DNA of 12,349 nt, from NCBI GenBank assembly GCA_002373555.1, contig DFKM01000101.1, positions 1 to 12,349 of the forward strand, written 5' to 3'. The position numbers and the translations under genes are program-made. The DNA is from Lachnospiraceae bacterium UBA3645. Lineage in GTDB: Bacteria; Bacillota; Clostridia; Lachnospirales; Lachnospiraceae. Positions 1-12,349 of the stretch are shown piece after piece; position 1 is the stretch's first letter, and each line of letters begins with the position of its first letter. Under the pieces are notes generated by a model. The model searched no databases. It saw only the letters and a list, made by a program, of their open reading frames with translations, and was not told where the DNA came from.

Positions 1-752
1 TCCTTGGACATCTCCAGGCTGAAGATCGCCGTGCAGTACCCCTTTTTGAAGCAGGCATACTGCGCGATATTCAGCGCAAATGCCGTCTTTCCCATGGACG
101 GTCTGGCAGCCAGCAGGATCAGATCCGAAGGCTGGAGACCTGCCAGCTTCCGGTCCAGATCCGTAAAGCCTGTCGGCACGCCGGTGATCAGGCTCTTCGT
201 CCTGGCCGCCTTGTGAATACGCTCCAGCGTCGAGATCGCGACCTCCTGGATCGGTACATAATCCTGCTCTCTCCGGCGGTTCAGCACGTCGAAGATCTTC
301 TTCTCGGTATCCGCCAGGATATTCTCCGTCTTGTCCTTCCCGGCGTAGCACGCGCCGGCAATATCCTCCGTGACATGGATCAGCCTCCGCAGGACTGCCT
401 TGTCATGGATGATCTCCGCATAATATTTTCCGTTCGCGGAATACGGTACTGCGGCCACGAGACCGCCGAGGTATTCCATCCCCGCCGTCTCCGGCGGGAC
501 ATCCTTTTCCTTCAGCCGGTCCTGCAGCGTCATGATATCGACCGGACGGCCTTCCTCATAGAGCTCGACCATGGAATCGAAAATAACCCCGTACTGTCTG
601 ATGTAGAATTCGCTTCCGTTAACGATATTCTCCACGACGGGAATCACTTCATTATCCAGGAGCATCGCTCCGATCAGGATGCCCTCAGCTTCTTCGCTGT
701 GGGGCTGTATTCGTTTGATCTGATTTTCTTCCATGCCGCTACTCTCTGTCAT
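1..752 (-). CDS. dnaB: Replicative DNA helicase DnaB, N-terminal 250 residues (cut by window edge)
   Basis: Replicative helicase that unwinds DNA at the fork and recruits primase. The frame starts at ATG 750-752 and runs off the left edge, so only the first 250 residues are visible. Residues 15-115 form the helical N-terminal domain, opening with the family-typical QPHSEEAEGILIGAML. A linker follows to about residue 185, then the RecA-like domain starts (TGVPTGFTDLDRKLAGLQPSD). The Walker A motif ARPSMGKT lies at 216-223, and SLEMSK, also conserved in DnaB, ends the visible part. No intein is seen in this part. GGAGGGG lies 10 bases before the ATG; Met7 is an alternative start but has no good ribosome binding site. 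It is the last visible gene of the operon, 43 bases after rplI, the usual Firmicutes neighbour. Called dnaC in Bacillus subtilis. Confidence 0.97.
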   Translation of the reverse strand, partial: MTESSGMEENQIKRIQPHSEEAEGILIGAMLLDNEVIPVVENIVNGSEFYIRQYGVIFDSMVELYEEGRPVDIMTLQDRLKEKDVPPETAGMEYLGGLVAAVPYSANGKYYAEIIHDKAVLRRLIHVTEDIAGACYAGKDKTENILADTEKKIFDVLNRRREQDYVPIQEVAISTLERIHKAARTKSLITGVPTGFTDLDRKLAGLQPSDLILLAARPSMGKTAFALNIAQYACFKKGYCTAIFSLEMSK

Positions 753-762
753 TTCGTAAGAT

Positions 763-789
763 CCCCTCCGCACACGTTCCGCAGAGGAG
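763..789 (-). promoter_or_regulatory. Hairpin enclosing the dnaB ribosome binding site
   Basis: In the minus-strand transcript the bases complementary to 781-789 (CTCCTCTGC) can pair with those complementary to 763-771 (GCGGAGGGG) over 9 positions, two of them G-U, around a 9-base loop. The GGAGGGG half is the only good Shine-Dalgarno sequence for dnaB, so the stem would hide it. No run of U follows, so it is unlikely to be a terminator. A translational control role is inferred; it may also be chance pairing in GC-rich sequence. Confidence 0.4.
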
Positions 790-795
790 ACCGTT

Positions 796-1242
796 TTATT
801 CCGCTGTTACGTTCACCTTGATCGCCGCCGTCACATCCTTGTGCAGCTTGACCGACACGGGATGCTCGCCCAGGGTCTTGATGGGATCGGGCAGCACGAT
901 CTTTTTCTTGTCGACTGCGACGCCCAGCTGCTTTTCCACTTCCTGCGCAAGCTCCTTGGAAGCGATGGCGCCGAAGAGCCTGCCGCCCTCACCGGCCTTG
1001 ACCTTCATCTGAATGGTCTTGCCGGAGATGGAATCCGAAAGCGCTCTCGCCGCCGCCAGCTCCTCCGCCGCGACCTTCGCTTCATAGGCTTTCTGCTGTT
1101 TCAGCTTGGCGAGATTCGCCGCATTCGCCTCGACCGCCATCTTCTTGGGGATCAGGAAATTCCTGGCGTAGCCGTCATTCGCCTTGACCACATCGCCGGC
1201 CTTTCCAAGCGTCTTTACATCCTGAAGCAATACTACCTGCAT
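796..1242 (-). CDS. rplI: 50S ribosomal protein L9
   Basis: Large-subunit ribosomal protein that binds 23S rRNA at the base of the L1 stalk and reaches out along the ribosome, helping to keep reading frame. At 148 residues it is full length for the family. The N-terminal rRNA-binding domain has the L9 signature GYARNFLIPKKMA at about 24-36. The Lys/Ala/Glu-rich connecting helix spans about 40-75, and the C-terminal domain runs from about 76 with GEGGRLFGAIASKE. The start is fixed by AAGGAGG six bases before the ATG, overlapping the gdpP stop codon region. It lies 12 bases after gdpP and 43 bases before dnaB, so it is co-transcribed with both. Nothing in the protein is unusual. Confidence 0.98.
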   Translation of the reverse strand: MQVVLLQDVKTLGKAGDVVKANDGYARNFLIPKKMAVEANAANLAKLKQQKAYEAKVAAEELAAARALSDSISGKTIQMKVKAGEGGRLFGAIASKELAQEVEKQLGVAVDKKKIVLPDPIKTLGEHPVSVKLHKDVTAAIKVNVTAE

Positions 1243-1247
1243 GATTT

Positions 1248-1256
1248 CCTCCTTTT
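1248..1256 (-). promoter_or_regulatory. Ribosome binding site of rplI
   Basis: On the minus strand the sequence reads AAAAGGAGG, a near-perfect anti-16S match, placed six bases before the rplI ATG. Its first two bases are the last two of the gdpP stop codon, so termination on gdpP and initiation on rplI occur at practically the same place. This suggests translational coupling. Confidence 0.85.
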
Positions 1257-3249
1257 ACAGGGCCCCTTCCTGCGTCATCTGCAGAATGGTGTCCTTCACT
1301 CTTTCCTTCGCTTCATCGATCGAGCAGTTCGTCAGCTGCGCGCCGGCAATGCTCAGATGTCCGCCGCCGCCCAGGCGTTCCATGATCAGCTGAACATTCA
1401 CTTCGTCGATCGACCGTGCGCTGATATAGATCTTGTCATTGTACGGCGTGAATACAAAGGATGCTTTCACACCGATGATATCGAGCATATCGTTCGCTGC
1501 CTGCGCGCCGATCACCGTAGGGCTCTCCACGCCGTCAGGCTTGCATACGCTCATTGCGTAATTGTCCATGAACATCTCCGCGTTGCTGACCGTAGCCGTC
1601 TTCACGCGCGTATCCTGCATGCGCTCGCGGAAAAGCTTGCGGACTCTCGTCACATCCGCGCCGTGTCTGCGCAGGAATGCCGCCGCTTCGAATGTCCGGA
1701 CGCCGGTCTTCGCCAGGAAGTTGTCCGTATCCATGACGATGCCGGCATAGATCGTCTCGGCTTCCAGCGGGCGGATGCGCATGCTGTCGCTGAAGTACTG
1801 CAGCACCTCCGCGACCATTTCGCTGGCCGAAGACGCATAAGGCTCGATATACGAAAGCGTCGATTTCTTGATCGTCTCGCTGTTCTGTCTGTGATGGTCG
1901 AGCACCACGATCGTCTCGGCTTTTTCGATCAGGGACGGGCATTCCGTATAGCTCTGCCGGTTCACGTCCACCACGACGACCATCGTTCCGGGCGCGAGCA
2001 GGCTCTTCGCCTTCTCTGAATTGATAATGAGATCCTGCGGATAATCCGGGTTGTCCACGAAACGGTCGATGATCGGCCGCAGCGAAGACGTGATCTCGTT
2101 CATGACGATGTGCGCGCTCTTCTGCATGTGCACAGCCGCGCGGTAGATGCCGATCGCCGCGCCGAAGCAGTCCATGTCGGGCATCTGATGGCCCATGATG
2201 AGCACCTGCTCCTTGCCCGTCATCAGCTCCCGGAGTGCCTGGGCCTTGACTCTCGCCTTGACGCGGGTGGCCCGGCCTTCTTCTCTTTCCTTCTTGCCGC
2301 CGTAGAAGATGGTCTTCTCCGGCATCCGGACGACCGCCTGGTCGCCGCCGCGGCCGAGGGCAAGATTCATGGCGTTCTGCGCCGTTTCATCATTTTTATC
2401 CAGCGTACCTCTGCCGGTCGCCATGCTGATGCTGAGCGTGACGGCCGTCGTATTGCCGATATTCAGGGTCTTGACATCCTCCAGGATGGAGAAATGATCC
2501 TCCATCGCGGCATCCAGGCCCTTTTTCTGCATGAAGACGGAATACTTGTCCTTCTCCACCTTGCGGATCTGGGCGTCGAACTGGCCGAAATATCTGCTGA
2601 GCTTCCGCTCGATCAGCGCTGCAAGCAGGGACTGTCTGACCTGCTCCGTGCTGCCCATGACTTCTTCGTAATTGTCGATGTAGACCTGACCGATGACCGC
2701 CCGCTGGGCTTCCAGTTCGGCCAGCGTCTTCAAATGGGTCGTCTCATCGAACAGGAAGACCGAATACATGCCGGTCCGCTCGGAGATCAGCTGGATATCG
2801 AACTGATAGGCCCGGTCCTTCCATTTGATATGCTCCGTGCGCTTCACGCCGGGTTCCGGCAGCTTTTTGATCAGGCCCGGGCACATGCTTTCGATCGAGA
2901 AAGAGTCCTCCTCTTCCGGCAGCAGCGCCTCAAACTCCCGGTTCACCCAGAGCACCTCGCCCTTGTTGCCGATGATGCAGTACGGTCTCGGCAGGGACAT
3001 CAGCCGCTCGTACTGGTTGCTGACGAATTCCGTTCCGAATTCGATCAGCTCGCCTTCCATCTGTCTGCGCCAGGAAAGCATCCACCAGATCAGGAAGGCG
3101 CCGTAGCATCCCGTGATCACGCCCGTGATCAGACCCGCATAGGGATTGATCCAGGTCATCAGCAGGACCAGTATGAGCAGAAGCGGGAGCAGGTACAGCG
3201 GCCAGTGCAGCGACTGCCGCAGCTTTCCCTGGATCCTTTTGTCAGTCAT
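1255..3249 (-). CDS. gdpP: Cyclic-di-AMP phosphodiesterase GdpP (DHH/DHHA1 family)
   Basis: Membrane-bound enzyme that hydrolyses the second messenger c-di-AMP to pApA and so affects cell-wall stress and osmolyte balance. At 664 residues it has the usual family length and domain order. Two membrane helices lie at about 15-33 and 36-59, and a PAS-like domain at about 80-170. The GGDEF domain is degenerate (GRGGDQ, 299-304), as is normal in GdpP. The DHH domain starts near 345 and DHHA1 follows, with GGGGH at 627-631. The catalytic metal ligands are visible: H354, D358 and D360 in GHQMPDMD, D428 in VVVVDV, D451-H452-H453, and D507 in VMDTDNF, so the enzyme should be active. The start overlaps the end of the ClpX-like gene by 8 bases (ATGACTGA). 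Its ribosome binding site GGAGG lies inside that gene's last codons, pointing to coupled translation. It is known as yybT in Bacillus and precedes rplI-dnaB there too. Confidence 0.96.
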   Translation of the reverse strand: MTDKRIQGKLRQSLHWPLYLLPLLLILVLLMTWINPYAGLITGVITGCYGAFLIWWMLSWRRQMEGELIEFGTEFVSNQYERLMSLPRPYCIIGNKGEVLWVNREFEALLPEEEDSFSIESMCPGLIKKLPEPGVKRTEHIKWKDRAYQFDIQLISERTGMYSVFLFDETTHLKTLAELEAQRAVIGQVYIDNYEEVMGSTEQVRQSLLAALIERKLSRYFGQFDAQIRKVEKDKYSVFMQKKGLDAAMEDHFSILEDVKTLNIGNTTAVTLSISMATGRGTLDKNDETAQNAMNLALGRGGDQAVVRMPEKTIFYGGKKEREEGRATRVKARVKAQALRELMTGKEQVLIMGHQMPDMDCFGAAIGIYRAAVHMQKSAHIVMNEITSSLRPIIDRFVDNPDYPQDLIINSEKAKSLLAPGTMVVVVDVNRQSYTECPSLIEKAETIVVLDHHRQNSETIKKSTLSYIEPYASSASEMVAEVLQYFSDSMRIRPLEAETIYAGIVMDTDNFLAKTGVRTFEAAAFLRRHGADVTRVRKLFRERMQDTRVKTATVSNAEMFMDNYAMSVCKPDGVESPTVIGAQAANDMLDIIGVKASFVFTPYNDKIYISARSIDEVNVQLIMERLGGGGHLSIAGAQLTNCSIDEAKERVKDTILQMTQEGAL

Positions 3250-4846
3250 GATACTCTCCTCCCGGAAGCGCCGGCTGTCCCCGGAATTCGATCCCCGGGC
3301 CGCCTGTTCCCTTCAGGTAGTCCGCCGTAATGATCACTCTTCCGATATTGGGGTCCTTGGGTATCTCATACATGATATCGAGCATGAATTCCTCGATGAT
3401 CGCCCGGAGCGCTCGCGCGCCGGTATCCTGTTCCAGGGCTTTTTCCGCGATCACCGCGAGCGCGTCGTCCTCAAATACCAGGTCGACTTCGTCCATGGCG
3501 AGCAGCTTTCTGTATTGCTTCAGGATCGCGTTCTTCGGCTCCTTCAGGATGCGGATCAGCGCTTCCTTATCCAGCGGCTTCAGTGTGACGACCACCGGGA
3601 GCCTGCCGAGGAACTCCGGGATCATGCCGAATTTTCTGAGATCCTCCGTCTTTACCTGGCTTAAGATCTCCTCCTCGCTCTCAAGGCCCTTCAGCCGGGC
3701 GCCGAAGCCCATCGAGCCGTTCTTTGTGAGCCGCTCTCTGATCACCCCGGTCAGATCCGGGAATGCGCCGCCGCAGATGAACAGGATATTCCCGGTATCC
3801 ATCGTGGCCATCGGCACCATGCCGTTCTTGCTGCCGGCGCCGACCGGGACATCCACGCGGCTGCCCTCCAGGAGCTTTAAGAGCTCCTGCTGCACGGATT
3901 CTCCGCTGACATCTCTGGTATTTGCATTGTGTTTTTTCGCGATCTTGTCGATCTCATCGATGAAAACGATGCCTGTCTCGGCCTTGTCCACATCATTGTC
4001 GGCTGCGGCCAGCAGCTTCGAGAGCACGCTCTCGATATCATCGCCGATATAGCCGGCCTCGGTCAGGGACGTGGCATCCGCAATGGCAAGCGGCACATTG
4101 AGGAGCTTTGCGAGCGTCTGCACGAGGTACGTCTTTCCGCTTCCCGTCGGACCGATCAGCATCATGTTGGATTTCCGGATATCAACGCCGTCGGAATTGT
4201 CGGAAAGGATCCTTTTGTAATGATTATAGACGGCAACGGAAATGGATTTCTTTGCCATCTCCTGCCCGACCACATATTCATCCAGCATGGCCTTGATCTT
4301 ATGCGGCGCGGGGACATCCTTCATCGTGAAATCCGGCTTTTTGTTCTCCGTGCGCTTCTTTACTCTCTGGCGCTCGGGGATCTGCATGCCGAACGGGCCC
4401 ATCTGCGTCAGATCGATCATCCGGACGTTGATCCTGGGGCTGCTGTTCTTCTTTTTCTTCTGATCGGAAGACGGTTCTCCGCCGTCGGGATCCGGGACAT
4501 CCTCTTCCGTCTGTTCGTCCGCGGATACTTCCGCCGCGCTGTCTGTCGCTTCTTCCGCCGCCGCGTTTTCCGTTCCGGGGGCTTCGTCTCCCGCCTCGTC
4601 CGCATCTTCCGCTGCACTGCCGTCCGCCCCGCCGGGCATCAGGCTGCCAAGAATATCAAACGGCATTCCCTGTCCGGACAGAAACGGCGTGAGCATGGGC
4701 ATGCTGTCGATGGCTTTCTGGATGCAGTCATTGCACACACAGACGCCGTCGGCAATATGGATCATCTTCCCGGCTTTGCTCTGCGGTCTGCGGCAGATAT
4801 TGCAGACGTCTTCATATTCCTGTGTATTGTTGTTGTCGTTGTTCAT
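3242..4846 (-). CDS. clpX: ClpX-family AAA+ unfoldase with acidic insert, probable ClpX paralog
   Basis: ATP-driven unfoldase of the ClpX family, which feeds proteins into ClpP. At 534 residues it is about 110 longer than usual ClpX. The N-terminal zinc domain has C15, C18, C38 and C41, plus an extra C36. Residues 74-130 are an Ala/Glu/Asp-rich insert ending in four lysines. The AAA+ core starts near 179 with Walker A GPTGSGKT (232-239), pore-1 loop GYIG (265-268), Walker B VFIDE (294-298) and sensor-2 GAR (476-478). The ClpP-binding loop reads MGF (379-381; IGF or LGF in typical ClpX). The pore loop that carries RKH in ClpX reads SKN (339-341). RKH is needed in E. coli ClpX for ssrA-tag binding, so altered substrate choice is inferred. 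It is first gene of the operon with gdpP, rplI and dnaB. The housekeeping clpX is presumably elsewhere; that cannot be seen here. Confidence 0.88.
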   Translation of the reverse strand: MNNDNNNTQEYEDVCNICRRPQSKAGKMIHIADGVCVCNDCIQKAIDSMPMLTPFLSGQGMPFDILGSLMPGGADGSAAEDADEAGDEAPGTENAAAEEATDSAAEVSADEQTEEDVPDPDGGEPSSDQKKKKNSSPRINVRMIDLTQMGPFGMQIPERQRVKKRTENKKPDFTMKDVPAPHKIKAMLDEYVVGQEMAKKSISVAVYNHYKRILSDNSDGVDIRKSNMMLIGPTGSGKTYLVQTLAKLLNVPLAIADATSLTEAGYIGDDIESVLSKLLAAADNDVDKAETGIVFIDEIDKIAKKHNANTRDVSGESVQQELLKLLEGSRVDVPVGAGSKNGMVPMATMDTGNILFICGGAFPDLTGVIRERLTKNGSMGFGARLKGLESEEEILSQVKTEDLRKFGMIPEFLGRLPVVVTLKPLDKEALIRILKEPKNAILKQYRKLLAMDEVDLVFEDDALAVIAEKALEQDTGARALRAIIEEFMLDIMYEIPKDPNIGRVIITADYLKGTGGPGIEFRGQPALPGGEYHD

Positions 4847-4899
4847 TGCGTCTCCGTGGTCCGAAATTCAGTGGATCAAACACAAAAATCTATCTATGT

Positions 4900-4928
4900 A
4901 TCATAACAGAAATGCAGTTCTTCATCAA
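4900..4928 (-). promoter_or_regulatory. Sigma-A type promoter of the ClpX-like/gdpP/rplI/dnaB operon
   Basis: The minus strand reads TTGATG (4923-4928), a 17-base spacer, then TATGAT (4900-4905). These match the vegetative consensus at 5 of 6 positions in the -10 box and 4 of 6 in the -35 box. Transcription would begin near 4893, giving a leader of about 47 bases with GGAG five bases before the ATG at 4846. No other promoter this good is seen inside the operon. Confidence 0.75.
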
Positions 4929-4976
4929 TAGGTGAAATGACCGGCAGGCGGCGGAGGCGGCCGCCCGCAGAAGCCG

Positions 4977-5002
4977 AAAAAGAGCCGGCGTGCTGCCGGC
5001 TC
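4977..5002 (-). terminator. Rho-independent terminator of the giant surface-protein gene
   Basis: The minus-strand RNA forms an 8-base-pair perfect stem GAGCCGGC/GCCGGCTC with a five-base loop, followed directly by UUUUU. It starts 12 bases after the TAA stop at 5015-5017. The GC-rich stretch 4941-4970 and then the promoter of the next operon follow, so the two transcription units are well separated. Confidence 0.92.
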
Positions 5003-5014
5003 CTCTCGCAATGT

Positions 5015-8000
5015 TTATTTTTTCCTGTGTGAAAATACCGCCAGGCCGGCTGTCATCGCGCCGGCTGCCGCCAGAAGCAGCGCCCAGAAAAGAGGATCGG
5101 ATGCGTCTCCCGTCTTCGGCGAGGTCTTCGGCGTACTCTTTACCGTATTACCTCCGCCTCCGCCGCCGGATCCGCGCTTTTCCTTCTCTGCAGACGTCGT
5201 CTCCGAACCGGCCTGCGTGCTTGTCTCTTCTTTTGTTTCTTCGGCTGTCGTCTCCTCCGCAGTCTCCGTTTCCGGTTCCTCTTTTTCGGGATACGTTACG
5301 GTCTGATCGGCATCGTTCAGATCCGCATGTACCGCAACGGTGCTGCCCTCCGAGAGCAGTTCCTCGAAGGCGACCACGGAAACTGCCGTCAGTTCTGTTT
5401 CACGGAACACAAATTCCAATGCGGCCTCTCCAAAGGAAGCTTCCGGGGTGAAGGTCACCGACGCACGGATCTCTTCTCCGTTCTCCCGTTTCATGCTCTC
5501 TTTCGTTTCTTTATTCATGAGCACGCCGGAAAGCGTATATTCCTTTCCGGGGATCAGGTTCGCATACGTCACGGTGTCGATGATCCGGATCTCTTCCTGC
5601 CGGACGCCGGCATGATTGCCGGATACCGCATCCTTTGCCGTTGTCCGGATCTCGGGAACATAGACCGACTGGGCCGTGTCGCTGATGTCCTCATGGGAAC
5701 CGAGCTTTGCATCTCCCGCATACAACTCCTCGAAGACCACGACGGTCGTGCCGGCAAGCGCGGACGCATCCAGCGTGAATTCCAGATCGATGGTCCCTTC
5801 TGCCGCTTCCGGAACGAATTCCTTCTGCGCGATTACTTCTTTGTCACCCGCGAGGAGCGGCTTCCCGTCCGCAGCATTCATCAGCAGCCCGCGGATCGTA
5901 TATGTTTTTTTCGGCTGCAGATTCCTGTAGGTCACGGTATCCGTCAGCGCTGCGTTCGCCGCCGCAAGCATCTGGCTGCCGCCGGACGTCTGATCCTTCG
6001 CGGATGTCCGGATCTCCGGATAGGACACCGTCTGCTCCGGATCGGTCAGATCCTCGTGCGCGGCCACCTCGGTCTCACCGATCAGCACTTTTTCAAATGC
6101 CACGACACTTTCTCCCCGGACCAGTTCTCCCGGAAACGTGAAGGTCAGTTCGCATGCGCCGGCAGGTGTATCGGGGGTGAATGTTTTTTCCGCCGTGACA
6201 GGCGTTCCGTCCGCAAGCGTGAGCGGCGTACCGTCCGACTTTTTCATCAGTGTTCCCCGCACGGTATATTCCTTTCCGGGTGTCAGACCGATATAGCTGA
6301 CGCTGTCCTTCACCGTGACGGTCTTTTCCGAAGCGTTTCCTTCATGCAGACCGGTGACGGCATCTGCTGCTTCCGTATGCAGAGAAGAGACAGACACGGT
6401 CTGATCCGGATCCGTCAGATCCTTATGCTCTGCCGCCAGGGTACCTTCTCCGTTTTCCTCTGTGACATGGAACAGCTCCTCGAACACCACATAGCCGGAA
6501 TCCGTCCGGCCGGTCAGGGAAAAGGTGAACTGCAGCCTGCGGCTTCCGCTTTCCGTCTCCGCGGTAAATGCATCCTGTGCCGTGACCGGCGCGTCCTTTT
6601 CCATGACGGGCTCTCCTGTGTCTTTGCTCATCAGCGTTCCGCGGATCACGTAACGTTCTCCGGGCTGTACATGATCGTAAAGCACCGTATCCGTGATCAC
6701 TGCGGCTTCGTCGGCGGAGAGCGTATGCGTCCCGTTGGTCCCGTCCGCGGCGGAGGTCCGGATCTGCGGGAACCAGACCGTCTGCGGCACATCCTGCAGA
6801 TCGGCATGGACCGCGACCGGCGTATCGCCCACGCGGACTGTCTCAAAAGCGACGATCCGCCGTCCGGTCAGCGTCACATTTTTGAAAGTGAAGGTGAGGA
6901 TCACCGAGCCGTCCGGCTCCTGCGGGGTATGCTTCACCTGTGCGGTCACCGGTTCTCCGGCTTCATACGTCAGAGGTTCTCCGGTCTCCTGATCCATCAG
7001 AATGCCGTTGAAGGTGTACTCCGTGCCCGGGATCAGATTCCGGTAGGTCACCTCGTCCGCGACCTGCAGTACCTCCCGGAAAATGGCTGTCTGCTCCTTC
7101 GTTTCCGCATCATACGCGTGCGTTTCGACCTCCGGGACATGGAGCGTCTGGGCCGCGTCACGGAGATCTTCGTGGACAGCAAGCGTCGTGCCGTCCTTCG
7201 TCAGCGTCTCAAACACCACCAGATTCTGTCCGGCGCAGCCGGAGGCGTCGAAGGTGAACTGCACGGGGACGCTGCTGTCCGCTTCCTTCGGGACGAAGGT
7301 CTTCTCTGTCGTCACGGTCTGTCCGTTTACTTTGACGGCTTCTCCGGTCTTCTGATCCATCAGGATGCCGGACAGTCTGTATTTTTCTCCCGGCTGCAGG
7401 TTCGAATAGATGACGGTATCGATAATGACCGCATTTTCCTCTGCAAGAAGGATATTCAGGCCGGTATCCGGATTGACCGCCTGTGTCCGGATACTGCAGA
7501 AATGAATGGTCTGGTCGGGATCCTCCGGATCTTTATGCTCCGCGGCCGGCTTCGCATCTTCGGGAATCTCTCCGTTCTCATCCGCTGCATAAAGCTCTTC
7601 AAAGAAGACAACATCCTTTCCGGCAAGCGCGGAGGCATCCAATGTCAGTTTCGTTCTGACCGTGCCGAAGGAAGTGCCTGCCCTGAACTTCTTTTTCACT
7701 GACACCGCGTTCCCGTCGGGATCCCGGACGGCTTCGCCGGATCCTTTTTCCACAAGCGACGTGATCAGCACATACTGCTTTCCTTCGGTAAGCCGTGCAT
7801 AGGTGACCGTATCCGTCAATGTGACCGCACTGTCCGCCGCGGCATACTGCCCGCCGTTTCCGGCCTGCGCCTGCGTACCGATCACCGGCCCGCCTTCATT
7901 TTCGATCGAGGACAGATCCACGGCGGCTGCGCCCTGATAAGCGCGGTCATTTTCGATAGTGAACACATCCTCCCACATCCGCATGCCTTCATTGGCGCTG

Positions 8001-11000
8001 CAGGGAAGCTCTTCGATATGATAGGTGTCATAGGGAAGCGCGCCCAGGCTGTCATTCACAGGTACGGAATTTCCATCCGGATCCATGCCGAACCAGAGGC
8101 CGGCGGCCGGATCCCCGTTCGTTTCATCTCCTGCGTTTGTCTTCACGCTGTGCTTAACCTTCGCGGAGCTGTAGCGGCCGTTCGCGTCGGTCATGACGAT
8201 ATGGCTCTCGCCTGTCGTCAGCGACGTGATCCGGAACGGGATATTCGCCATACCCTTCTGGGAGCCCGCACTGATCTTCCGGAGCGTAAAATCATTCCGG
8301 ATCACCTGCTCCTGCACGGCTTCCTTTCCCGTCAGATCGATCATCTGCCCGTCTTCCGTAACGGAGAAGGTGCGGGTATACGTTTCTTCCGGGAATTCTT
8401 CCGGAGACAGATACCCCTCCGGCGCTCCCGTCTCGCGGATCTCGTAGGTGCCGCAGGGAAGATCCCTCTCTCCGGTCTGCGCCGTGCCGTCTTCTCCCGT
8501 CACAATCGCCGTCACGACACCGCCGGTCTCCACTTCCTTCTCGTATCTGCCGTCGCCGTCCGTGTCGATATACACGGATGCTTTGGAGCGGTTGACGATC
8601 TCAAATTCCGCGCCGGCAAGCGAGGCGCCGCCGAGCGGCTGATTCTTCCCGGACTCCCGGTCGGTTTTCCCGATCTTCACGCCGCCCCGGAAGATCTCAT
8701 CCTTTGCCGTCAGCGCAATGACTTTATCCGCATCGGTCTTTTTGATCTCAAACGGAATATCCTCTGCCCGGAACCTTCCGTAAGGCGCTTTCAGCTCCCG
8801 CAGGATATAGCTGCCCTCCGTCAGTGCGTTCGCCGCTGTCTTCGCCGTGCCGTCCGCACCGATCGTAAGACCGCGCACAACCACATCGCCTTTTTTGTAC
8901 CGGAAGCCGTCCTGGTTGTCGATGTCGGCCGCCGCCAGGATATCGAACACCGCACCGGCCACCGGCGAATCGCCCTGCATGACCGGCTTCCCGGAATCCG
9001 CATCCAGCTTCAGAAGGCCGACAGGTACGAAAAAGGGGGCATTGGTCTCGGTATGCTGATTCTTTCCGCCCCGGATCTGCAGATCGACTGTCCTGTAATC
9101 CGCACGGTAACCGGCCGGGGACAGGATTTCCGTCAGCTGATAGGTGCCCTTCGGCAGATGCATAACGCGGGCAAAGCCGTCCGCACCGGTCGTGATCACG
9201 CCGGAGGCATCGATATCACCCCGGATCCCGTTCGCGGATGAAGGCGTCACCGTCTTGCCGTTCTGTGTCAGCCGGAATTTCGCGCCGGCCAGAGGCTTCG
9301 CAGTCCCCGCAGTCACCTTCTTTACTTCCAGATCTCCGTAATTCGGCTGGTCATACGCTTCCAGACGGATCACTCCGGCCGTCTGCGTGCTGCCGGCCGC
9401 TGTGATCTCCGCGGATTTCGTGCCGTCTGCATTCACCTTCTCCCGGATATTCACCGCGATCCCGGGACCGGCGGCGTCCTTTCCGCCGAAACGGAAGTGC
9501 ATGCCTTCGTTGCTGTAATCTTTCGTACCCGCGGTCTCCGTCACGGTCAGCGTGCCGAGCGGGATCACATACTTTCCGTTGACTTCATATACTTTCGTGC
9601 TTTCGACAAGATGCGCAGCATCGGATTTTGCCAGATAATGTGTCCGTCCGCCCGCGCTTTCCGGCATGGTCCGGACGGTCCAGCCCGCTGCCCGCGTACC
9701 CGCCTGTGCCTCCTGATACGATCCATATACGGCATTATAGTGATCCAGTCGGAAACGGATGTCCGACAGATCCATGCCCGCGGACGGCGCGCCGTCTGCG
9801 GTGAGCGCATCGAATTTTTCAATCTCAAGCTCCGCAAAGACCGGGATATCCTCTGCCTGCAGCCTGTTGGCGCCCGCATTCAGATTGACGGGGATGACCG
9901 TATCTGAAAGCTGATAGCCGCTTCCGGCTTTGATCTCCTTTGCATAAACGGTCTTCCCGATATAGGCCGTGCTGATCTCCGTCTCCGGCGTGCTGCCGTC
10001 CGCACCGCATGTCAGGACCAGGATCCGGTTCCGGTCGGCAGCCGCATCCGCCTCCGACGCATAGACCGCATACTGCGTGCCGGCAAGAGAATAGAGACTG
10101 TTGTTCTTCACCATTTCCGCATACGCTGCATTGTCACCGGACACGGTTTTTTCAATGGCCAGCGTCGCCGTATTGGTCCACTCCACCGTGAAAGAAGCCT
10201 CCCGGTCTCCCGCAGAGCTCTCCACGCACATCACCGGCTGGTAGTGATCGCCGGAAGACGATTTGCCGGCATCCAGAAGATACGCCTGAATATCCTTCGT
10301 ATATTTTCCTTTGGCCTTTACCTTCCACTGCCGCTCCATATCGCCTGCATGGGACAGCGCCGCGGTAAAATAAAATGCGGTTCCCGCCTCGATCGTCACC
10401 TTCACCGAACCGTCGGACTCCTTCGAACTTTTGCCGGTATCCGCATTGTGATACGTGACATATTTCGGAAGCGTGATCGTGATGCTGTTGCCTTCATCCG
10501 CCTTGAAGACATTCTCCGGCGTCTTTTGATAATCCGCGCCCTCCGGGACCGAAGCCGTAAGCTTCGTTTTCTGAAAGGAGATATTCGCGTCCGGGATCGA
10601 AGGCATGGAATCCGCGTAGTCAATCAGCGCATTGACGGCGGACCTTCCTTTGCTGTTTATGCAGTATGTCCAGTCATCGCTGCCGTAGATCTTCGCAGCC
10701 GTCCAGTGGACGATCCCATACTGTTCATTTTCCGTGTATCCGGTATTTCCCTTTTGTTTAAAGAAACAGTCGTCGCCGGACATGGAAGTACCGTAATAGA
10801 CCACCTTTGCCAGCTCTTTGCTGTCCTTGTACTCCTTTACGCCGACCTTTGTAAAGGAGCCGTCCGGTCCGGGAAAACGCGGCTCCACACAGTAGGCATC
10901 CTGGTCAATCTTATTTCCCTCACTGTCTGTAAAGGAGACATGATACCGTCCGGTAGAGCCGTCGCCGACATCACCGAAGCCGACCCACTGTGTGCGGTCG

Positions 11001-11599
11001 ATCTTTGCGCTCGTCGTATAATCCGGCGATGGCACGGCTTTCATCATTGCCGGTTCGCTCGACAGCGAAGGGGCCGGCGTCTCTGCAGGGATGGTCTGCA
11101 TTTCCGCAGCGGCCGACGTCTCCGCCGGCAATGTTTCCGTCGGCAATGTCTCCGCCGGCAATGTTTCCGCCGGCAGGGTCTCCGCCGGCTGTGAAACTTC
11201 CCGTGCAGTGGTCTCCTGTTCAGTTTCCGCGGGCTCGGGCCGGGTTTCCGCTGCCGTGTGGTCTTCACTCCCGGATTCTTTCTTCGCCGTTTCTCCGGTC
11301 TCCGGCACCGTTTTCTTTGTTTCCTCAGCGGCTGTATGTGCCGCCGTTGTTTCCGGCGCCGGTTCCGGAATTGTCTCCGCTGCCGGTTCCGGCAGTATTT
11401 CCTCCGTGGCTTCCGTTTCCGCCGCTTCCGTCTCTGCAGCGGTTCCGGATTCTGCCGTTGATTCCGCTGCTTCCGTCATGATGGATGCGCTCCCCGCCGG
11501 CATCACGGCACAGGCTTCCATCGGCGTCGAAACCGCCAGAAGCACAGCCGCTGCCAGCGCTGCCGCACGCATCCCGATCGTTCGCATTCTGCTCTTCAT
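5015..11599 (-). CDS. Giant sortase-anchored VaFE-repeat surface protein (TIE-type adhesin), 2194 aa
   Basis: Predicted wall-attached adhesin held together by self-formed covalent bonds. Residues 1 to about 34 are a signal peptide (basic start, Ala/Leu core). Residues 42-185 are a Pro/Glu/Thr/Ala-rich stalk containing an ETLPA tandem repeat. Residues 195-478 resemble a thioester head domain (C237 in AYCVEPRF; EQYGIVHW with Q293). About six SpaA/Cna-B-like domains follow (480-1235) and then seven VaFE repeats (1240-2105). The tail is Glu/Thr-rich, then six glycines (2145-2150), the sorting motif SPKTG (2160-2164), a membrane helix (about 2169-2189) and HRKK. AAGGAAGG before ATG 11597-11599 supports the start. 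The gene stands alone with its own terminator; no sortase gene is in the window. The frame is intact, with no frameshift. Host target and binding function are unknown; adhesion is inferred from architecture. Confidence 0.93.
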   Translation of the reverse strand: MKSRMRTIGMRAAALAAAVLLAVSTPMEACAVMPAGSASIMTEAAESTAESGTAAETEAAETEATEEILPEPAAETIPEPAPETTAAHTAAEETKKTVPETGETAKKESGSEDHTAAETRPEPAETEQETTAREVSQPAETLPAETLPAETLPTETLPAETSAAAEMQTIPAETPAPSLSSEPAMMKAVPSPDYTTSAKIDRTQWVGFGDVGDGSTGRYHVSFTDSEGNKIDQDAYCVEPRFPGPDGSFTKVGVKEYKDSKELAKVVYYGTSMSGDDCFFKQKGNTGYTENEQYGIVHWTAAKIYGSDDWTYCINSKGRSAVNALIDYADSMPSIPDANISFQKTKLTASVPEGADYQKTPENVFKADEGNSITITLPKYVTYHNADTGKSSKESDGSVKVTIEAGTAFYFTAALSHAGDMERQWKVKAKGKYTKDIQAYLLDAGKSSSGDHYQPVMCVESSAGDREASFTVEWTNTATLAIEKTVSGDNAAYAEMVKNNSLYSLAGTQYAVYASEADAAADRNRILVLTCGADGSTPETEISTAYIGKTVYAKEIKAGSGYQLSDTVIPVNLNAGANRLQAEDIPVFAELEIEKFDALTADGAPSAGMDLSDIRFRLDHYNAVYGSYQEAQAGTRAAGWTVRTMPESAGGRTHYLAKSDAAHLVESTKVYEVNGKYVIPLGTLTVTETAGTKDYSNEGMHFRFGGKDAAGPGIAVNIREKVNADGTKSAEITAAGSTQTAGVIRLEAYDQPNYGDLEVKKVTAGTAKPLAGAKFRLTQNGKTVTPSSANGIRGDIDASGVITTGADGFARVMHLPKGTYQLTEILSPAGYRADYRTVDLQIRGGKNQHTETNAPFFVPVGLLKLDADSGKPVMQGDSPVAGAVFDILAAADIDNQDGFRYKKGDVVVRGLTIGADGTAKTAANALTEGSYILRELKAPYGRFRAEDIPFEIKKTDADKVIALTAKDEIFRGGVKIGKTDRESGKNQPLGGASLAGAEFEIVNRSKASVYIDTDGDGRYEKEVETGGVVTAIVTGEDGTAQTGERDLPCGTYEIRETGAPEGYLSPEEFPEETYTRTFSVTEDGQMIDLTGKEAVQEQVIRNDFTLRKISAGSQKGMANIPFRITSLTTGESHIVMTDANGRYSSAKVKHSVKTNAGDETNGDPAAGLWFGMDPDGNSVPVNDSLGALPYDTYHIEELPCSANEGMRMWEDVFTIENDRAYQGAAAVDLSSIENEGGPVIGTQAQAGNGGQYAAADSAVTLTDTVTYARLTEGKQYVLITSLVEKGSGEAVRDPDGNAVSVKKKFRAGTSFGTVRTKLTLDASALAGKDVVFFEELYAADENGEIPEDAKPAAEHKDPEDPDQTIHFCSIRTQAVNPDTGLNILLAEENAVIIDTVIYSNLQPGEKYRLSGILMDQKTGEAVKVNGQTVTTEKTFVPKEADSSVPVQFTFDASGCAGQNLVVFETLTKDGTTLAVHEDLRDAAQTLHVPEVETHAYDAETKEQTAIFREVLQVADEVTYRNLIPGTEYTFNGILMDQETGEPLTYEAGEPVTAQVKHTPQEPDGSVILTFTFKNVTLTGRRIVAFETVRVGDTPVAVHADLQDVPQTVWFPQIRTSAADGTNGTHTLSADEAAVITDTVLYDHVQPGERYVIRGTLMSKDTGEPVMEKDAPVTAQDAFTAETESGSRRLQFTFSLTGRTDSGYVVFEELFHVTEENGEGTLAAEHKDLTDPDQTVSVSSLHTEAADAVTGLHEGNASEKTVTVKDSVSYIGLTPGKEYTVRGTLMKKSDGTPLTLADGTPVTAEKTFTPDTPAGACELTFTFPGELVRGESVVAFEKVLIGETEVAAHEDLTDPEQTVSYPEIRTSAKDQTSGGSQMLAAANAALTDTVTYRNLQPKKTYTIRGLLMNAADGKPLLAGDKEVIAQKEFVPEAAEGTIDLEFTLDASALAGTTVVVFEELYAGDAKLGSHEDISDTAQSVYVPEIRTTAKDAVSGNHAGVRQEEIRIIDTVTYANLIPGKEYTLSGVLMNKETKESMKRENGEEIRASVTFTPEASFGEAALEFVFRETELTAVSVVAFEELLSEGSTVAVHADLNDADQTVTYPEKEEPETETAEETTAEETKEETSTQAGSETTSAEKEKRGSGGGGGGNTVKSTPKTSPKTGDASDPLFWALLLAAAGAMTAGLAVFSHRKK
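5018..5122 (-). other. Cell-wall sorting signal (SPKTG, membrane helix, basic tail)
   Basis: Encodes residues 2160-2194: SPKTGDASDP, a hydrophobic helix rich in Leu and Ala, then HRKK. It is an LPXTG-like signal with Ser in place of Leu. (S/P)PXTG motifs are the substrates of Clostridioides difficile sortase B, so a sortase of similar specificity is inferred. The preceding residues STPKT look like a near copy of the motif but lack the glycine. Confidence 0.88.
5285..7882 (-). repeat. Seven tandem VaFE repeats (predicted ester-bond domains)
   Basis: Seven units of 121-130 residues, diverged in sequence: 7493-7882, 7130-7492, 6764-7129, 6383-6763, 6014-6382, 5651-6013 and 5285-5650. Each begins near xxTxA (Thr 1242, 1372, 1493, 1615, 1742, 1865, 1986). 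Each has D[TSE]V (Asp 1263, 1394, 1515, 1637, 1765, 1887, 2008) and a [VF][VAF]FE core (Glu 1334, 1464, 1586, 1707, 1836, 1957, 2079). Each ends in HxDxxDxxQ[TS], with His and Gln exactly eight apart (1355/1363, 1476/1484, 1598/1606, 1725/1733, 1848/1856, 1969/1977, 2091/2099). Thr, Gln, His, Glu and Asp are the residues that form and assist the Thr-Gln ester bond in the Clostridium perfringens adhesin Cpe0147. The equivalence here is by motif reading only. Confidence 0.85.
7895..10162 (-). other. About six SpaA/Cna-B-like isopeptide domains of the surface protein
   Basis: Residues 480-1235 hold a series of domains that start with a lysine-bearing strand and end with a glutamate in the pattern Y.l.E...P.GY. 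Likely Lys/Glu pairs are K484/E555, K595/E688, K760 or K761/E824, K864/E935, K975 or K978/E1056 and K1108/E1196 or E1197. Examples of the ends are YQLTEILSPAGY and YEIRETGAPEGY. In such domains Lys forms an isopeptide bond with Asn or Asp, assisted by the Glu. Asn/Asp partners were not assigned, and the first, second and sixth domains are the least typical. Confidence 0.7.
8534..8566 (-). other. DxDxDG calcium-type loop inside a SpaA-like domain
   Basis: Encodes residues 1012-1022 (DTDGDGRYEKE). D1012, D1014 and D1016 followed by G1017 match the first half of an EF-hand or dockerin loop, but position 12 is Val, so it is incomplete. Short DxDxDG loops occur in bacterial surface proteins as calcium sites. 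Calcium binding is an inference. Confidence 0.45.
10166..11017 (-). other. N-terminal head domain, probably of thioester type
   Basis: Encodes residues 195-478, the first folded part after the stalk. C237 sits in DAYCVEPRFPGPDG, the context seen around the thioester Cys in TED domains. ENEQYGIVHW (Q293) is a divergent counterpart of the TQxAIW motif. The Cys-Gln distance is 56 residues, and three more Cys (278, 313, 458) could form disulphides. The YCVEP motif fits the family better than the Gln motif does, so thioester formation is uncertain. Confidence 0.5.
11121..11190 (-). repeat. 15-base tandem repeat, about 4.7 copies
   Basis: On the plus strand units of TCCGCCGGCAATGTY repeat at 11121, 11136, 11151, 11166 and, partly, 11181, with one to three changes per unit. 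In the gene they encode the five-residue ETLPA/ETLPT repeat of the stalk (about residues 138-160). The unit is a multiple of three, so copy-number change would keep the frame. Confidence 0.9.
11501..11599 (-). other. Signal peptide of the surface protein
   Basis: Residues 1 to about 33 begin with MKSRMRTIGMR (four basic residues), continue with the hydrophobic stretch AAALAAAVLLAVS and reach a small-residue region near ACAVMPAG. This is a standard Sec signal. The exact cleavage site is uncertain. C30 is not in a lipobox, so it is not a lipoprotein. Confidence 0.85.
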
Positions 11600-11682
11600 T
11601 TTCCTTCCTTTCTTTGATCTCGTTTGTATTTATATAAAAGGTCTGCCGGCCTGTTGTTTTCCGTCCACTACAAAAGCGCACG

Positions 11683-11688
11683 ATTATA
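11683..11688 (-). promoter_or_regulatory. Possible -10 box for the surface-protein gene
   Basis: The minus strand reads TATAAT here, about 84 bases before the start codon, in an AT-rich stretch. No recognisable -35 box lies 16-18 bases upstream (the 17-base position reads AAACGG). The true promoter may therefore need an activator or lie elsewhere in the region. Confidence 0.3.
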
Positions 11689-11714
11689 TAAGGAAAAAAC
11701 TTCTCCCGTTTATG

Positions 11715-11911
11715 TATAATCAGCATGGGAAAGGCTGCGTTTTCCTGCAGATCATGGTGAGCGTAGCATAAGAACAGCGTATCCCGCGGACACTTCCTGT
11801 GCCGGTTTGTCACGGATCTGCCGGATCGTTTCCTTCCGTTTCCTGCGGTCACCCGCAGTCACCGGAAGTACCAGCGACGGACGACCTTCGTCGTCCGCTT
11901 TATGTTTTCTT
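11715..11911 (+). ncRNA. Candidate structured RNA of unknown family
   Basis: A plus-strand TATAAT (11715-11720, preceded by TATG but with no clear -35 box) is followed by three hairpins. The first is at 11787-11804 (six pairs with a bulged A). The second is at 11833-11868, where an outer stem CTTCCG/CGGAAG encloses an inner stem CTGCGG/CCGCAG, with a 4x4 internal loop and a TCAC tetraloop. The third is the terminator-like stem at 11878-11897. The unit would make an RNA of about 180 bases. It matches none of the common RNA families I checked by eye (6S, SRP, tmRNA, RNase P, common riboswitches). It may instead be GC-rich sequence with chance pairing. Confidence 0.25.
11878..11911 (+). terminator. 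Terminator-like hairpin upstream of the activase promoter
   Basis: A perfect 8-base-pair stem CGGACGAC/GTCGTCCG with loop CTTC is followed by CTTTATGTTTTCTT, an imperfect U-rich tract. It reads on the plus strand although no plus-strand gene precedes it. It may shield the activase promoter from readthrough or end a small RNA. Confidence 0.55.
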
Positions 11912-11914
11912 AAC

Positions 11915-11943
11915 TTGTAAATAACAGGAAAAAGATTTATATT
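11915..11943 (+). promoter_or_regulatory. Sigma-A type promoter of the activase gene
   Basis: TTGTAA (11915-11920), a 17-base spacer and TATATT (11938-11943) give 4 of 6 and 5 of 6 matches to the consensus. Transcription would begin near 11950, leaving a leader of about 24 bases that is nearly all ribosome binding site, with no room for a riboswitch after the start point. Confidence 0.65.
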
Positions 11944-11960
11944 AGAATGACGACTTTTTA

Positions 11961-11976
11961 GGAGGAGATCCCCTTG
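11961..11976 (+). promoter_or_regulatory. Ribosome binding site deciding a TTG start
   Basis: GGAGGA at 11961-11966 stands 7-8 bases before TTG 11974-11976. The conserved DIGSTTVK region begins nine residues later, leaving no room for a downstream start. The first in-frame ATG is at about codon 62, after the phosphate-binding motif, so TTG is the start. Confidence 0.85.
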
Positions 11977-12349
11977 GAAAAGCATTACAGTCTTGGCATC
12001 GATATCGGATCCACCACGGTCAAGATCGCCGTGATCGACGATGAACGCCATGTACTATTTTCAGACTATAAAAGACATCTGGCGCACATCCAGGAAACGC
12101 TGGCCGAGCTTCTGTCGGAAGCCCGCGCACAGCTCGGGAATGTGATCCTGCACCCGATGATCACCGGCAGCGGCGGCCTGACGCTCGCGAACCATCTGCA
12201 TGTACCGTTCGTACAGGAGGTGGTCTCCGTGGCTTCCGCGCTGGAGTACTATTCTCCGAAGACCGATGTTGCGATCGAGCTCGGCGGAGAGGATGCGAAG
12301 ATCATTTATTTCACCGGCGGCGTCGACCAGCGCATGAACGGCATCTGCG
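11974..12349 (+). CDS. Acyl-CoA dehydratase activase (BadF/BadG/HgdC ATPase family), N-terminal 125 residues
   Basis: ASKHA-fold ATPase that drives one electron into a 2-hydroxyacyl-CoA dehydratase or related enzyme, as in anaerobic amino-acid fermentation. The visible part opens with the phosphate-binding motif LGIDIGSTTVKIAVID (7-22). It continues with TGSGG (64-68) and IELGGEDAKI (101-110), and ends in QRMNGIC. In HgdC-type activators a Cys at this place binds the [4Fe-4S] cluster at the dimer interface; C125 is the last complete codon of the window. The IELGGEDAK and QRMNGIC wording resembles the long activases that carry two ATPase domains and a dehydratase-like part, but the length cannot be seen. 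Transcribed away from the surface-protein gene from its own promoter. Confidence 0.93.
   Translation, partial: MEKHYSLGIDIGSTTVKIAVIDDERHVLFSDYKRHLAHIQETLAELLSEARAQLGNVILHPMITGSGGLTLANHLHVPFVQEVVSVASALEYYSPKTDVAIELGGEDAKIIYFTGGVDQRMNGIC

Follow-up and report, generated by a model that had tools for sequence, protein, structure and literature searches.

Seven VaFE repeats in a Lachnospiraceae adhesin each keep the complete residue set of the Thr-Gln ester cross-link

The window, a 12,349-nucleotide stretch of Lachnospiraceae bacterium UBA3645 (GCA_002373555.1, contig DFKM01000101.1, positions 1-12,349), contains the gene of a predicted surface-anchored adhesin whose stalk consists of seven VaFE repeats, and we find that each of these repeats keeps the complete set of residues that Cpe0147 of Clostridium perfringens uses to form a Thr-Gln ester cross-link. 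The residue set in all seven repeats, its match in fold to Cpe0147, and its conservation among relatives are observed in this work. We are confident, short of certainty, that the adhesin is a sortase-type cell-wall TIE protein in which each stalk domain forms its Thr-Gln ester in the protease-like manner of Cpe0147. The finding holds and has good support, yet it is sound but ordinary, in that it represents the normal behaviour of a known protein family.

Two family models each match the adhesin in seven stretches, namely PF18202 TQ of Pfam (whole-protein E 4.1e-186, 609.5 bits against a cut-off of 23.8) and NF033903 VaFE_rpt of NCBIfam (whole-protein E 4.9e-242, 788.7 bits against a cut-off of 24), and each of the seven repeats alone scores above the Pfam cut-off. 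The repeats are 28-45% identical in pairwise comparison, with a mean of 38%. According to the original prediction, Thr, the Asp of D[TSE]V, the Glu of FE, His, and Gln occur in all seven repeats, His and Gln are always eight residues apart, and the residue types are those of Cpe0147. The first two statements hold in 7/7 repeats, and the third is borne out by a sequence alignment of the repeat residues with those of Cpe0147. The set is indeed complete, but it comprises six residues and not the five of that prediction, because the triad acid at His+5 (corresponding to Cpe0147 D577), which had been left out, is also Asp in 7/7 repeats (Table 1). In the mechanism published for Cpe0147, T450 is the nucleophile, H572 the base, D577 the acid, and Q580 the electrophile, while D480 and E547 form a pair buried in the domain (PMC12679949; here and below, published statements are taken from excerpts of the papers cited).

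Across the seven repeats, 14 of 120 usable columns are invariant, and all six of the residues defined in Cpe0147 are among them (hypergeometric 8e-7, which serves as a guide only because neither columns nor paralogues are independent). The motif HxDxxDxxQ, a signature already in print (PMC10619420), occurs seven times in the adhesin, whereas 1,000 shuffles of the same protein average 0.005 occurrences and never exceed 1, and it occurs 0 times in the other four proteins of the window (1,603 residues).

Repeat 2 was modelled alone with AlphaFold at a mean predicted local distance difference test score (pLDDT) of 97.5, and the model matches Cpe0147 structurally from end to end, with Thr and Gln falling on T450 and Q580. 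For repeats 1, 2, and 6, the structural-alignment ends put Thr and Gln on these same two residues (T11 and Q141 in the numbering of 4mkm and 4ni6), and the predicted repeats are immunoglobulin-like (Ig-like) in fold, Thr lying on the first strand and Gln at the last. Predicted structures with Thr and Gln far apart, which would have spoken against the original prediction, were not seen, as judged by alignment ends and not by distances. When repeat 2 was compared with solved structures in Foldseek, the 17 best chains were all ester domains (E 1.5e-7 to 4.0e-5), and 7ui8 appeared at 1.1e-3, ranked below two glycoside hydrolases. Because these E-values are modest, residues were placed by VIA alignment ends together with HMMER sequence alignment, not by Foldseek.

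The nearest relatives that we found are two Lachnospiraceae metagenome-assembled genomes, L010 (goat jejunum) and L011, whose orthologues are 76% identical to the adhesin over some 1,940-1,980 residues and also have seven repeats. In a tree of the 21 repeats of the three genomes, each position forms a clade with its orthologues (7/7), and identity at the same position is 68-83% across orthologues as against 28-44% between repeats within the protein. A recent amplification of the array is rejected by this grouping by position, and the array predates the divergence of the three genomes. Only 9/120 columns are invariant across the 21 repeats, and the core catalytic residues make up five of these nine. 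The triad acid deviates in 1/21, where repeat 2 of L010 has Glu for Asp; repeat 4 of L011 has Glu at His+2.

To see how common the complete set is, we used two samples. The first consists of the adhesin and 119 homologues, which are the best 120 listed of 6,491 matches and hence favour relatives that share words with the query; it yielded 1,826 domains, of which 1,825 are at least 95 residues long and 785 are different in sequence. The second consists of 29 loci of genomes from the same family, picked by the Pfam model and cut at the locus edges, which represent 29 of the 31 other matching genomes; PF18202 is found in 32/150 genomes of this family, the window's own counted. Removing domains of fewer than 95 residues cost 1/1,826 homologue domains and 9/94 family-sample domains. 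All six residues are present in 768/785 homologue domains, and the five excluding D577 in 775/785. After thinning to 293 domains by shared 4-mers, which is not a proper identity cut, the corresponding counts are 279/293 and 283/293. The family sample gives 68/85 for all six and 76/85 for the five excluding D577; of the nine domains short of the five, five are gapped at the Thr column and one is gapped from His onward, and some of the gapped domains sit at cut locus edges. In both samples the D577 position varies more than the other five (Ser in 8/85 family-sample domains), which fits the tolerance published for Cpe0147, where the D577A/H mutants retain cross-linking at 79-86% of wild type (PMC12679949). 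That every copy has a complete set is thus not special to this gene, and the surprise that the original prediction implied finds no support: the complete set is the norm where the domain occurs, so the adhesin shows the ordinary state of a known family. Seven repeats are present in 4/120 proteins, the query included, and 12-24 in the other 116. The three remaining family-sample domains short of the five are two degenerate-looking VaFE-like domains of L040 and one domain of L036 with Ala replacing Glu, which have seemingly lost one or more of the six residues.

The spacing of these residues is equally regular. Gln and the next Thr are nine residues apart at 6/6 junctions in the adhesin and at 1,678/1,700 junctions in the 120 proteins, and the His-Gln spacing of eight recurs in 776/777 homologue domains and 81/81 family-sample domains. 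Glu and His are separated by 12 in five repeats of the adhesin, by 21 in repeat 1, and by 18 in repeat 4, as against 25 in Cpe0147 (E547/H572), where the loop contains DTDNNYELD. This short Glu-His loop in 5/7 repeats and the nine-residue Gln-to-Thr step are the less obvious details of the stalk. A Glu-His spacing of 12 is found in 684/779 different homologue domains and 49/81 family-sample domains; the spacing is at least 20 in 9/81 of the latter, and four of these nine, all in L039, have the acidic pattern in the printed loops that we read. A longer acidic loop is present in the solved relatives whose loops were read (4mkm, 4ni6, 9blp, 8dj2, 8f90, 8fha, and 7uc3), a comparison that leaves out 8f9l, 5u5o/5u6f, and 7ui8. 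No solved short-loop ester domain was found among the structures with the loop read, and no literature search was aimed at the short loop. None of the seven repeats has a full DxDxD loop, which places them outside the Cpe0147-like subgroup that we define by the long acidic loop; membership in the TQ/VaFE family is independent of this loop. One of the structures read, the solved ester-domain adhesin 8dj2, carries the source label Chlamydia trachomatis, which may be wrong; this organism is an unlikely host for a sortase-anchored adhesin.

If the stalk domains follow the route of Cpe0147, His, helped by the Asp at His+5, would activate the Thr of the first strand, and this Thr would then attack the side-chain amide of the Gln adjoining the last strand while the buried Asp/Glu pair polarises that amide. 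Ammonia would leave, and the resulting Thr-Gln ester would join the first strand to the last. By analogy with Cpe0147, this would occur in all seven repeats and would give the stalk a mechanical role: because the step from each Gln to the following Thr is nine residues, seven esters and their linkers would make up a nearly continuous covalent spine from the head to the cell wall, an idea that is already in print (PMC10619420). Such a load-bearing stalk would fit the force data published for Cpe0147 C1, where the partially unfolded structure held up to 2.5 nN while unfolding occurred at ~92 pN without the bond (PMC8382745).

Several points weigh against closure of an ester in every domain of a cell-wall adhesin. 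The placement of Thr and Gln in the predicted structures is taken from the end positions of structural alignments, not from atom coordinates or distances, and repeats 3, 4, and 7 were not individually matched to a solved chain. The model of the whole stalk has a predicted template modelling score (pTM) of 0.51 and therefore does not predict how the repeats are oriented towards one another. Gram_pos_anchor is not among the Pfam matches of the adhesin (P0001), and its C-terminus has no anchor match. Finally, the Glu-His loop of 5/7 repeats is shorter than that of the solved ester domains read, and carrying the chemistry over by homology therefore means bridging a difference in structure.

An explanation that we consider unlikely, yet the best placed of the alternatives, is that the residues are kept while fewer than seven repeats are cross-linked at once, with some esters forming slowly or hydrolysing. 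In its favour, rupture of the Cpe0147 C1 ester made up 17.9% of events at pH 9 and 22.3% with ethylenediaminetetraacetic acid (EDTA), and fully unfolded, ester-free C1 domains made up 37.5% at pH 9 and 20.0% with EDTA (PMC8382745), and five repeats of the adhesin are in the short-loop class, which has no solved example among the loops read. The ester is nevertheless said to form in all C1 domains (PMC8382745), and partial cross-linking has to be set against six residues that are invariant in 7/7 repeats here and present in nearly all of the different homologue domains. Considerably less probable is that the Ig-like fold or networks of buried charge account for the conservation of the residues and that this branch of the family makes no ester. 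Four positions for which no catalytic role is known, the Ala at Thr+2, the Val at Asp+2, a Tyr, and the Phe before Glu, are also invariant in 21/21 repeats, and no bond has been demonstrated for short-loop repeats among the entries examined, but a role in folding does not account for Thr, Gln, His, Asp, and Glu having been retained together where Cpe0147 has them. Moreover, the dispensable D577 would be expected to vary most if catalysis sets the constraint, and this is what we observe in both samples. That common residues of a repetitive protein merely line up by chance has a negligible probability given the shuffle counts, and this reading is ruled out by the full-length Pfam and NCBIfam matches and by the fold match.

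Returning to ester closure by the Cpe0147 route, the short loop raises the question of metal. In our own reading, the acidic Glu-His loop is probably a calcium site; a metal-binding loop in ester domains is described in PMC10619420, and two calcium ions in the Cpe0147 domain in PMC8382745. The calcium sites of Cpe0147 are reported to make no contribution to thermodynamic stability or ester formation (PMC8382745), so only mechanical protection is at issue here. We offer as a tentative proposal, with somewhat less than an even chance of being correct, that short-loop VaFE domains form a structural class among the ester domains, one that has no acidic, probably calcium-binding loop and protects its esters in a metal-free manner. 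If this is true, short-loop domains would escape the low-calcium failure seen for Cpe0147 C1, and stalks with the fixed nine-residue Gln-to-Thr step would act as a metal-independent covalent cable.

From N- to C-terminus, the adhesin consists of a signal-like start, a linker, a thioester domain, SpaA/Cna-B-type domains, the seven TQ/VaFE repeats, and a sorting-type end (Table 1). By inspection, the N-terminus has a signal-like hydrophobic stretch, and SPKTG is followed by a hydrophobic stretch and then a basic tail. The linker is rich in Thr, Glu, Ala, and Pro; within the gene, 15-base tandem repeats at 11103-11192 code for part of this PAETL-like linker, which runs from the N-terminus to the thioester domain. 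PF17802 SpaA matches three stretches (E 7.6e-39, Pfam), the best of which is listed.

Table 1. Positions of the adhesin gene and its features in the window, with residue numbers of the encoded protein
Feature	Position	Strand	Details
Repeat block	5291-7888	-	first Thr codon 7874-7876, last Gln codon 5303-5305
VaFE repeat 1	7499..7888	-	T1242, D1263, E1334, H1355, D1360, Q1363
VaFE repeat 2	7136..7498	-	T1372, D1394, E1464, H1476, D1481, Q1484
VaFE repeat 3	6770..7135	-	T1493, D1515, E1586, H1598, D1603, Q1606
VaFE repeat 4	6389..6769	-	T1615, D1637, E1707, H1725, D1730, Q1733
VaFE repeat 5	6020..6388	-	T1742, D1765, E1836, H1848, D1853, Q1856
VaFE repeat 6	5657..6019	-	T1865, D1887, E1957, H1969, D1974, Q1977
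VaFE repeat 7	5291..5656	-	T1986, D2008, E2079, H2091, D2096, Q2099
VaFE-repeat surface-anchored adhesin gene	5015..11599	-	single open reading frame, 2,194 residues (P0001)
Thioester domain, PF20610 TED_2	10592..11002	-	residues 200-336, Pfam E 9.6e-17
Best SpaA (PF17802) prealbumin-like domain	9062..9337	-	residues 755-846, Pfam
SPKTG, candidate LPXTG-type sorting motif	5108..5122	-	residues 2160-2164, by inspection

YCVE at residues 236-239 fits the Cys motif [YFL]C-hydrophobic-polar of TIE thioester domains (PMC6194298), and the same motif is found in the homologues P0009, P0051, and P0068. A candidate pattern for the partner Gln of the thioester matched a YQPV stretch in P0051 and P0068 and did not match in P0001; YQPV itself is present in P0001 by inspection, but the next residue differs, which puts it outside the pattern. 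The adhesin's EQYGIVHW is an inexact fit to TQxxXW. Both the thioester and the isopeptide bonds of the adhesin are putative, being read from family matches and motifs.

The adhesin has clear counterparts among known systems. Like Cpe0147 (PDB 4MKM, 4NI6, 9BLO, 9BLP), it combines an Ig-like domain with HxDxxDxxQ and a buried Asp and Glu, places its Thr on strand 1 and its Gln close to the last strand, and carries its tandem array behind an N-terminal adhesion domain, with seven repeats where Cpe0147 has 11 (PMC10619420). Tandem ester domains have already been published for Cpe0147 and for Mobiluncus (PMC10619420). The TIE proteins SaTIE, BaTIE, and the Mobiluncus giant adhesin are sortase-anchored chains that, like the adhesin, contain thioester and isopeptide-type domains; SaTIE and the Mobiluncus protein share its ester domains as well (PMC6194298, PMC10619420). 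The same repeat type and general architecture characterise the VaFE repeat-containing surface-anchored proteins (NF033903; PF18202), the name under which P0010 of Lachnoclostridium phocaeense is entered in UniRef. The adhesin would thus be another clean example of an adhesin stalk that cross-links itself, from a gut Lachnospiraceae lineage, in which all seven copies retain the six-residue set despite their divergence and the order of the repeats predates the separation of the three genomes. The short-loop class is the practical point, since it is the commonest among the sampled proteins and is without a solved structure among the loops read, so a single short-loop repeat could be informative about much of the family.

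Upstream of the adhesin gene, on the other strand, is an acyl-CoA dehydratase activase gene, and downstream are clpX, a gdpP-like gene, rplI, and dnaB, an arrangement that is kept in L010 and L011. In the window's own genome (63% complete, 244 contigs), PF04203 finds one sortase, which is of class C and lies beside a pilin-like gene. It belongs to a pilin-like gene cluster at positions 1-3273 of L008 (contig C175 of this genome), which also encodes a pilin backbone protein ending in LPSTG. L012, a contig from yak duodenum titled Candidatus Saccharibacteria, encodes a 27%-identical relative that matches the SpaA and VaFE regions, for which gene transfer and mis-binning are both possible.
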